The position numbers were made by a program, and so were the translations under genes. Below, in pieces: positions 1-25,660 of a stretch of DNA of 64,000 nt (positions are counted from its first letter, which is position 1; each line of letters opens with the position of its first letter). Under the pieces are notes generated by a model. It was not told the origin of the DNA, did not search any database, and saw only the letters and a list, made by a program, of their open reading frames with translations. Source of the stretch: Sporosalibacterium faouarense (GTDB taxonomy: Bacteria > Bacillota > Clostridia > Tissierellales > VENL01); contig NZ_JAETGO010000037.1 of the NCBI RefSeq assembly GCF_016765695.1, forward strand, positions 1-64,000, given 5' to 3'.

Positions 1-85
1 TAAGTGGGAGAGAAGACTTCTCTTCAGGTGGAGTAGAGTCTCCATCTGAAGCCCCGATGTTCTACTTTAGCAGAACGAGTTCACT
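1..85 (-). repeat. Structured dispersed repeat, copy 1
   Basis: On the minus strand this reads from AGTGAACTCG (85-76) into three successive hairpins: arms at 70-76/59-65 with a TAAA loop, arms at 40-49/24-33 closing a six-base loop, and a short one at 10-22. The segment 41-85 recurs at 24241-24285 with about six mismatches, several of them in or next to the first stem, which still pairs in both copies. It lies about 84 bases downstream of asnA and runs to the window edge, so its far boundary is unknown. I do not recognise a named RNA family. A non-autonomous mobile element or a decayed end of an IS200/IS605-type element is possible but unproven. Confidence 0.6.
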
Positions 86-168: not shown

Positions 169-1179
169 TTACAACAGATTAATATTCCCCTTTGCACATT
201 CTTCATGCATTTCTTGTGACCACACTGAGGCTTGAACCTCTCCTACATGTGCCTTTCTTAGAAAATACATACAAATTCTTGATTGGCCAATTCCACCACC
301 AACAGTATAAGGTAATTTTCCTTCCAATAGCATTCTATGGAATTCTAATTCCTTTCTTTCCTCACATCCTGCTATTTCTAACTGCTTTTCTAAAGCCTCT
401 TCGTCCACCCTAATTCCCATTGAAGATAGTTCAAATGCTCTTTCTAGTACTGGATACCAGAATATTATATCTCCATTTAGAGTCCAGTCATCATAATCTG
501 GTGATCTGCCATCATGCTTCTGTCCAGATTTAAGCTTCCCTCCAATTTGCATGATAAATACAGCGCCTTTTTCCTTTGCTATCTTATCTTCTCTTTCACT
601 AGGAGTAAGCTCTGGGTACCTGTCTTCCAGCTCTTGTGTAGTAATAAAACTAATCTCTTCAGGAAGTATTTTTTCGTACCCTGATAGTATGTCAAACATA
701 AATTCTTCAACATCTTTGAATACTCCATATATTTTTCTTACTATCTCCTTTAACGTCTTTTCTGTCCTCTGTTCTTTTAATATGATTTTTTCCCAATCCC
801 ATTGGTCTACATAGATAGAGTGAAGATTATCTAACTCTTCATCCTTACGTATAGCATTCATATCTGTGTAGATACCTTCTCCTGGCTTAAAATCATATCT
901 GTGTAGAGCCATACGTTTCCACTTAGCAAGTGAGTGAACTATCTCAGCCCTCTTATCGCCAATTCCTTTAACTTCAAATGAAATGGGCTTTTCACTTCCA
1001 TTTAAGTTATCATTTGTACCTGTTTCTGGAATAACAAATAGAGGTGCAGAGATTCTTGTCAACTCCAGTACCTCTGCGAGATTATTCTCGAAATAGTCCT
1101 TTAATTTTTTAATCGTTACTTCTGTTTCATAAACACTTAATTGAGGCTTATAGCCTTTTGGTATTACTAGATTTTTCAC
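169..1179 (-). CDS. asnA: Aspartate--ammonia ligase (ammonia-dependent asparagine synthetase)
   Basis: Makes asparagine from aspartate, ammonia and ATP in the cytoplasm. The 336 residues match the usual AsnA length of about 330. Recognisable AsnA segments include KPISFEVKG near residue 65, QWDWEK near 125 and the glycine-rich [14 protein letters not shown] near 295-308, which corresponds to motif 3 of class II synthetase-like folds. The start is a GTG eight bases after GGAGG. The gene stands alone behind an Asn-specific T-box leader, so uncharged tRNA-Asn should switch it on. No alternative assignment seems likely. Confidence 0.96.
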
Positions 1180-24211: not shown

Positions 24212-24240
24212 TTTCTTTAATTAATATAAATTATTAGATC

Positions 24241-24285
24241 TCCATCTGAGGACCCGATGCTCTGTTTTAGCAGAACAAGTTCACT
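24241..24285 (-). repeat. Structured dispersed repeat, copy 2 (truncated)
   Basis: Aligns with 41-85 of copy 1 at about 39 of 45 positions. The first hairpin is kept (GTTCTG/CAGAGC arms, 24275-24270 and 24263-24258), while only the first arm of the second remains before unrelated AT-rich sequence. The conserved opening AGTGAACT (24285-24278) contains the TGA that ends the pncB frame at 24283-24281. Confidence 0.6.
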
Positions 24286-25660
24286 GAACTTTCTCTAGCA
24301 TGGAATTATTACATGCCTTTCTTCCAACCTTAGCTAAATCATACCATTTCCCTTTAATTTTAACTCTTACTATATCAGCAGTAAAGTCATTATTTGCTCC
24401 AGTTTTACTTGAATTCTCTAAACAAGAGGATCCTACACCATATATATCTACGGGAGCATTGATTGCTTCAAATCTTTTTATCCTTTCTACATTAAAACCC
24501 CCTGTAACAGATATCTTGATATCCTGACACCATTTTTTTGCCACTCTCTTCATTTCATCGTAATCATTTGATTCTACTTTTTCTAACCAAACCTTCCATC
24601 TTTCATTCATAGCTTCTCTAAGTATATGGACAAGTCTTGGTGTAACTCCATTATCTAGCTTTCTATCTCCTAAAGGCTCAATAGAAACATCTCTCATGCT
24701 TCCGCTAGTATCGGGTCTCACTCCGTATAACTTATATTTTCTAGCTTCTTCTATTTTACCTTCTTTATGTAATTCCCAATATTTATTCCACATACTATCC
24801 ATAGTTTTTAATGTATCTGCAACAGTATCATTATGAAAATCATTTAATACAATCCTTGGTACATCAACTGGCATGATACGAGAGAACTGCATCATGGTTT
24901 CGGCAGTATTTCCTAAAAAAGAAGCTATGGATGAATGGGGAATTGTTCCTGCACCTTTACCTCCCCACCAATCTCCTTGTTCAGCAGTTGAAACAAAGGG
25001 ATTGGCTTCAGCACCAAAATCTTTTTTATATCTTTGAATAGCTAGCCAATAAGCATATCCATGTATACCCTGTAGCTTATAATGGGCAAATCTAGCTGGA
25101 AAGAAAAGTACTGGCTTTCCATTGGCTGCCTTTATAATATTATATACATTTGTAGCTATCCTTGTTGGTTCTCCCAATACTCCAAGATATGGAGTTTCAA
25201 GATGAGCAAAATCTCTATACCTTCCTCTAATTTTTATTACTGGCTGTACATTCATTTTATCTCCCTCAAATATAGTAATAGAACCATCCTGTACTGCCTC
25301 AACCTCTAAATTATTAAATGTATTAATAAAATTGTTTTCATCATCATAGTAACCAGTACATTCTCTTAAAATCTCTATGGCTTCATCTACACCAGCTATT
25401 ACACTTTTTCCAGGTCTACTGGTAAATATCTGCATTTCAATTTCTATATCTCCTATTTCTACATCTCTTACATCAATAACACCATCTAGGTCGCTTTCAT
25501 TATTTCCGAAAATATAACTCTCTTTTGACAATCTAGACAAAATCCAAGTTACATTATTAAAATAAACATCTGAATACCACCCATTTCTAAGTTTTCCCTT
25601 TATATCTTCATCCATTTTAAATGTTTTTTTATCTAATCTCTTACCGTTAAAAATGCTCAT
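24281..25660 (-). CDS. pncB: Nicotinate phosphoribosyltransferase
   Basis: Joins nicotinate to PRPP to form nicotinate mononucleotide in NAD salvage. The 459-residue protein belongs to the NAPRT/NAMPT superfamily, shown by GRYRDFAHLETPYLGVLGEPTR (about 149-170), FFPARFAHY (about 190-198), STAEQGDWWGGKGAGTIPHS (about 225-244) and YGVRPDTSGSMRDVS (about 318-332). Start ATG follows GGAGG, 20 bases after the nicotinamidase gene, which supports nicotinate as substrate. The last codons and stop lie in a dispersed repeat, so the native C-terminus may have been changed by insertion. Confidence 0.9.
   Translation of the reverse strand: MSIFNGKRLDKKTFKMDEDIKGKLRNGWYSDVYFNNVTWILSRLSKESYIFGNNESDLDGVIDVRDVEIGDIEIEMQIFTSRPGKSVIAGVDEAIEILRECTGYYDDENNFINTFNNLEVEAVQDGSITIFEGDKMNVQPVIKIRGRYRDFAHLETPYLGVLGEPTRIATNVYNIIKAANGKPVLFFPARFAHYKLQGIHGYAYWLAIQRYKKDFGAEANPFVSTAEQGDWWGGKGAGTIPHSSIASFLGNTAETMMQFSRIMPVDVPRIVLNDFHNDTVADTLKTMDSMWNKYWELHKEGKIEEARKYKLYGVRPDTSGSMRDVSIEPLGDRKLDNGVTPRLVHILREAMNERWKVWLEKVESNDYDEMKRVAKKWCQDIKISVTGGFNVERIKRFEAINAPVDIYGVGSSCLENSSKTGANNDFTADIVRVKIKGKWYDLAKVGRKACNNSMLEKVQ

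Follow-up and report, generated by a model that had tools for sequence, protein, structure and literature searches.

What is the structured repeat that stands behind two different genes, on the same strand, of contig NZ_JAETGO010000037.1 of Sporosalibacterium faouarense? The window, i.e. the whole stretch of 64,000 nucleotides analyzed, contains it twice, and the initial annotation had offered two readings: a multi-copy non-autonomous element with ends of the IS200/IS605 type, or an undescribed RNA module at the 3' ends of genes. The analysis below places the two copies, so far unexplained, in a family of mobile elements that occurs in several lineages of Bacillota and whose boundaries, target and structure are known. 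The family is new, although its kind is known, and one of its ends is unusual. The repeat is very probably a non-autonomous palindrome-associated transposable element (PATE) of the IS200/IS605 type, moved in trans as single-stranded DNA by a putative Y1 transposase.

Copies, extent and structure of the element

Comparison of the window with itself aligns 39–85 with 24239–24285 at 87% identity over 47 nt without gaps, so the match reported initially is real. The core pattern occurs twice, compared to 0.03 occurrences expected from shuffles. As also observed before, each copy follows a codirectional gene; for copy 1 this is asnA, and for copy 2 a gene whose stop codon the copy supplies. The features concerned are given below in gene-sense orientation.

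1–85, minus strand: copy 1, 5' 85 nt only, cut by the contig end at base 1
59–76, minus strand: copy 1 hairpin 1, GTTCTGC-TAAA-GTAGAAC; right-end hairpin in transposition orientation
22–51, minus strand: copy 1 hairpin 2, CTTCAG-A-TGGAG...CTCCA-C-CTGAAG; expandable middle of the element
1–10, minus strand: copy 1 hairpin 3, first arm (CTCCCACTT...); left-end hairpin in transposition orientation
169–1179, minus strand: asnA (aspartate--ammonia ligase), upstream of copy 1; ends 84 nt before the element
24239–24285, minus strand: copy 2, shortened and diverged; 5' ~47 nt with hairpin 1 and part of hairpin 2, right half absent
24281–24283, minus strand: TGA within AGTGAAC of copy 2, the stop codon of the upstream gene (GTT CAG TGA)
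24281–25660, minus strand: nicotinate phosphoribosyltransferase-like gene, 459 aa, upstream of copy 2

A T-box leader (RF00230, 127.8 bits) lies upstream of asnA on the same strand (1230–1482, minus) and is the only match in an Rfam search of the window.

The extent of 1–85 proposed initially is too short: the complete element measures ~109 nt plus a 5-nt target, and the window starts inside it, with the second arm of hairpin 3 and the target of copy 1 falling beyond the contig end. Contig C46 shares its first base with the window, likewise starts inside copy 1, and is one of many contigs of the S. faouarense assembly that end inside the repeat. The cut in copy 1 is an assembly break, not biology, and the element explains assembly breaks in such genomes. 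A complete minus-strand copy reads AGTGAACTCGTTCTGCTAAAGCAGAACATCGGGGCTTCAGATGGAGACTCTACTCCACCTGAAGAGAAGTCTTCTCTCCCACTTATAGAAGTGGGAGTCTTATCAAAAG, followed by ATAAA, which is target and not element. At ~110 nt, the element is too short for a transposase and has no coding capacity.

The first 100 bases match the whole S. faouarense assembly at no fewer than 40 places by BLAST, a 114-nt consensus does so at 41 or more, and a covariance model of the 5' half finds 31 copies. The copy number in S. faouarense is thus at least 31. An order-level search of 249 genomes gave BLAST matches in 12, some of which share only the CCCACTTATAGAAGTGGG hairpin, and covariance-model matches in 9; the other high-copy genome of the order (G247) belongs to the same family as S. 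faouarense. A pattern scan of public genomes, which demanded an intact AGTGAACTCGT and so favours copies whose AGTGA is under selection, matched at least 118 stretches. Among the matches listed are Desulfosporosinus (many), Acididesulfobacillus, Desulfotruncus arcticus, Herbivorax, Acetivibrio alkalicellulosi, Clostridium tepidiprofundi, Paenibacillus piri, Anaerobacillus and Tepidibacillus. Three hits of the scan in other phyla lack the structure and are chance matches. Searches of IMG/VR, INPHARED and PLSDB gave no match to the element, and a viral, phage or plasmid origin is rejected on these databases. A known Rfam RNA family is likewise rejected, no match reaching the gathering score, and no common protein was found among 414 neighbours of 123 copies.

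Copy 1 folds better than shuffled sequences (z = −2.5, 1/200); the shortened copy 2 folds no better than its shuffles (z = −1.0). The hairpin 1 arm differences between the two copies had been taken as paired changes. They are single-sided, with one G.T pair in copy 1 and changes on one arm only in copy 2 (family consensus GTTCTGC/GCAGAAC), and true compensatory changes appear only between genomes. There, three hairpins are supported when 36 distinct full-length copies are aligned. Scored against this explicit structure, 92.7% of the cells pair and two-sided changes occur at 16 of 27 pairs; the covariation score is 0.313 compared to 0.124 for shuffled alignments and at most 0.10 when partners are slid. 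Palindromes near both ends are characteristic of PATEs, and hairpins 1 and 3 are conserved here with two-sided changes; in hairpin 1, TTCTGC/GCAGAA is replaced by TTCAGC/GCTGAA, TTCAAC/GTTGAA, TTTAGC/GCTAAA, TTTTGC/GCAAAA or TTCATC/GATGAA. The initial annotation had named a count of only two copies, a lack of covariation or an Rfam match as outcomes speaking against it, and each of the three turned out otherwise.

On the gene-sense strand, the stems hold 38 A.C mismatches and 21 G.U pairs, so that A.C is not rarer, although the cells are not independent and the comparison is only indicative. Selection on RNA from this strand predicts the opposite; the A.C excess, if real, therefore points to the other strand. 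This count bears on the RNA module, which would be a transcribed structured element that ends, protects or processes mRNA behind genes, having spread somehow and been kept by selection. Such a module should favour G.U over A.C on the sense strand. In addition, hairpin 3 has no following U-run, Rfam holds no counterpart, and many copies lie far from genes or ahead of divergent ones.

Insertion sites, target and ends

Empty sites in relatives, found in Desulfosporosinus, define the boundaries (^ marks the junctions). At L221, in an aspartate kinase operon, the filled site reads TTAGGTATTTG^AGTGAAC...AAAGTG^AATATAAGCCAAAGAATTGGG, and the empty site in relatives at 94% and 90% identity reads ...TTTG^AATATAAGCAAA. 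Two further empty sites rest on relatives that are only 82–84% identical: at L191, CTTTCTG^AGTGAAC...GATTG^AATAACGTTGGCGAGGG corresponds to CTCTCTA^AATAAAGTTGGCGAGGG in an 84% relative, and at L159 the extra sequence of an 82% relative amounts to exactly five bases, ATCGA, in place of the ATCAA of the filled site. At all three sites the insertion is precise, with neither duplication nor deletion of the target. The element is inserted directly 5' of (A/G)ATNAA on the gene-sense strand; on the other strand it follows TTNAT (TTTAT, TTGAT and others), which is found in nearly all of 74 right ends. The N of the target differs among near-identical copies (ATAAA in L144 and L161, ATCAA in L203, ATGAA in L207, elsewhere also ATTAA), and no consensus extends beyond target and ends on either side. 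ATNAA is usually preceded by a G, which may belong to the element or to the target. The L221 target, AATAT, falls outside the TTNAT consensus, and this copy is internally deleted. GC skew revealed no significant lagging-strand bias in orientation.

The reverse assignment, with AGTGA as the native target and the element to its right, was at first favoured because genes end exactly at AGTGA. The empty sites of L221 and L191 led to its rejection, the native sequence there being AATAT or AATAA rather than AGTGA. The ends, AGTGAAC and ...G^ATNAA, are unrelated to each other; with neither terminal inverted repeats nor target duplication, a classical MITE of the DDE type is rejected as well.

Read on the plus strand of the window, the order is TTNAT, ~12 nt ending in AAGA, hairpin, a middle made of variable hairpins, hairpin and GAGTTCACT. 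The left-end hairpin on this strand is CTCCCACTT...AAGTGGGAG, preceded by the short AAGA-bearing linker. The orientation of the constant AGTGAA edge is the reverse of that assumed initially: the edge is the right end, which would read GTTCAC on the active strand. A genuine IS200 of a carrier genome has a similar left-end layout (TTTAA-C...AAGAAGT ahead of a CCCCCACC hairpin), and genuine IS605 copies in carrier genomes end in GTAGTTCAC (GTTCAC), as the right end of the element does. IS200/IS605-type elements of Firmicutes and the related group A IStrons use TTGAT, ATTAT or TTTAT as targets (PMC4227781), and PATEs of Haloquadratum have palindromic ends, no target duplication, and target bases that are the extra bases of the empty strain (PMC3119063). 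Copy number, covarying hairpins, exact empty sites, the TTNAT target and the architecture of the ends support the mobile element of the initial annotation, and by its mode of working we provisionally file it as a member of the IS200/IS605-type PATEs.

We propose that the plus strand of the window would be the active strand, the element beginning directly after 5'-TTNAT. A Y1 (HUH) transposase acting in trans would recognize both end hairpins, excise the element as single-stranded DNA and join it 3' of another TTNAT, leaving the target unduplicated. Known boundaries, target and structure make it possible to search for the missing enzyme. Y1 genes are present in 19 of 20 carrier genomes tested; carrier G256 has no Y1 match. 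The S. faouarense genome has no match to PF01797 (Y1) or PF07282 (TnpB), where an autonomous copy could have been lost at assembly breaks. None of ~70 Y1 loci examined is flanked by both element ends, so that no parent emerged among them, and for these loci an origin of the element as the ends of IS200 or RAYT-like Y1 genes is rejected.

Two further accounts were considered. In the first, the repeat would be a remnant of IS605 elements, the scaffold of a TnpB guide RNA (omega RNA) that may even now act with TnpB in trans. It shares the GTTCAC right end with IS605 copies of the same genomes, and TnpB occurs in most carriers tested. The 3' regions of tnpB, however, form other hairpins and give no match to the element model as an end, and neither the S. 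faouarense genome nor G187 has TnpB. A guide-RNA end is rejected on the tnpB 3' ends read, and we consider this account extremely improbable. Alternatively, the repeat could resemble REPs, with the long (~270 aa) Y1 proteins of many carriers acting as RAYTs. Long Y1 genes occur in most carrier genomes, and two of these genes are directly followed by a copy; these copies, however, look like ordinary insertions at stop sites, the long Y1 genes are flanked by a different inverted repeat (GGGGACGGTTCTT), and a Y1 gene is not detectable in S. faouarense. This makes a REP/RAYT pair very unlikely, if slightly less so than the guide RNA. The ~270 aa proteins (L357, L359, L361, L362, L364, L374, L379) are bounded by inverted GGGGACGGTTCTT and AAGAACCGTCCCC, apparently their own ends. 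By the tests made, the element is not a known RNA, a guide-RNA scaffold or a partner in a REP/RAYT pair.

Copies at stop codons

The position tally covers 104 scored copies, with right ends not found for 40 copies. Twelve of the 104 overlap a codirectional stop codon in the frame in which AGTGA supplies the TGA, seven overlap a stop codon otherwise, and twelve lie within 14 nt behind one. Per 1000 available target sites, these classes correspond to 162, 226 and 112 copies, respectively, compared to 12–14 in distant intergenic DNA, 0.4 inside genes and ~13 antisense behind stops. The density at or within 14 nt of codirectional stops is thus ~10 times that elsewhere per available target site, in position data where retention and targeting are not separable. 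The difference between sense and antisense behind stops has p = 4e-6 (p = 1e-4 with four instead of two antisense copies). In S. faouarense, 5 to 6 of 26 copies are in the stop-supplying frame, including copy 2 of the window.

The genes at these stops, including those whose stop codon the element supplies, are full length. FakA reaches 550/550, compared to models ending at 530/530 and 549/549, and LysS, HtpG, CooS, S1 and aspartate kinase end within a few residues of the model ends. TTTAT and TTNAT are the antisense of ATAAA and ATNAA, so that genes ending in TAA often offer a target. Seen from the gene, the right end reads AGTGA; landing therefore turns xNA TAA into xAG TGA and the stop is kept in frame. 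At L191, the target in the empty relative contains a TAA stop (AAA TAA); the site probably read G^AA TAA before insertion and now reads G^AG TGA.

With one end rebuilding the stop codon, the element could spread at gene ends almost without harm, which would account for the position bias. The AGTGA edge may then be an adaptation, in that the stop, and in many cases the final amino acid as well (xAA to xAG), survives the change from xNATAA to xAGTGA. The element, a single-strand DNA transposon, would have sense-oriented stop codons as its normal niche and would be harmless by a route unlike the splicing of IStrons, possibly with later use as a 3'-end module. We hold this adaptive reading tentatively, at somewhat below even odds. 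In this element, the rebuilding of a stop codon by a transposon end can be put to the test.

The sense-over-antisense bias just behind stops is not explained by rebuilding alone, and a benefit at the 3' end or an insertion preference is therefore possible; it raises the question of what restricts the copies behind genes to a single orientation. The enrichment 0–14 nt behind stops, in sense, is what an RNA module would lead one to expect, as is the retention of old insertions. A copy lies directly behind htpG in three Desulfosporosinus species (L155, L425, L430) at different stages of decay, indicating that some insertions are old. Precise insertion at TTNAT nevertheless suffices to explain the presence of the copies. 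The RNA module proposed initially is thus not needed, the stems giving it no preference for G.U, and we regard it as unlikely as the primary nature of the repeat; given the sense accumulation behind stops, an additional role at the 3' ends is conceivable.

Relation to known repeats and variants

Among the closest known systems are the PATEs of Haloquadratum walsbyi, which likewise have near-terminal palindromes, no terminal inverted repeats, no target duplication and a retained targeting sequence of 4–5 nt, are too short for a transposase, and are mobile although the tnpA genes of the host are broken (PMC3119063). This likeness is drawn from features, and the present element differs in spanning several Bacillota genera, in its expandable middle and in the clustering of sense copies at stop codons. 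IS200/IS605 elements and group A IStrons of Firmicutes share insertion 3' of T-rich pentamers and subterminal hairpins, and IStrons are likewise made harmless, there by self-splicing (PMC4227781). The element contains no tnpA, tnpB or intron, and its harmlessness would come from the rebuilt stop codon. REPs, too, are palindromic extragenic repeats of high copy number for which movement by Y1-type proteins has been proposed (PMC2817692, PMC8266576). They are described as 20–40 bp long with a GTAG or CGTC tag (PMC3733652), compared to ~110 nt here; moreover, the two end hairpins of the element differ from each other, and no RAYT bearing these ends is linked to it. BOX, RUP and SPRITE of Streptococcus pneumoniae are small structured non-coding intergenic repeats as well (PMC10969869). 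The target and mobilization of our element are different from theirs. The BOX repeat is modular, and we know of no sequence relation between the element and any of these three.

Several variants were observed. In Desulfosporosinus copies (e.g. L127, L173, L174, L128), the middle hairpin is enlarged by nested extra hairpins such as GTGACGAAAGTGTCCAGTGGACACTTTCGCC, to up to ~250–350 nt overall, as if smaller palindromes insert into, or grow from, the loop of this hairpin. In one copy of G247 (L068:1433–1552), the loop of hairpin 1 is extended by ~50 bases that form a hairpin of their own. Other dispersed palindromic repeats with a CTCCCACTTATAGAAGTGGGAG hairpin occur in G005/G007 (L062, L064, L069, L070, L077, L078) and G199 (L066, L072, L079); the type in G005/G007 ends in ATCGGATAA and may be a sister family.
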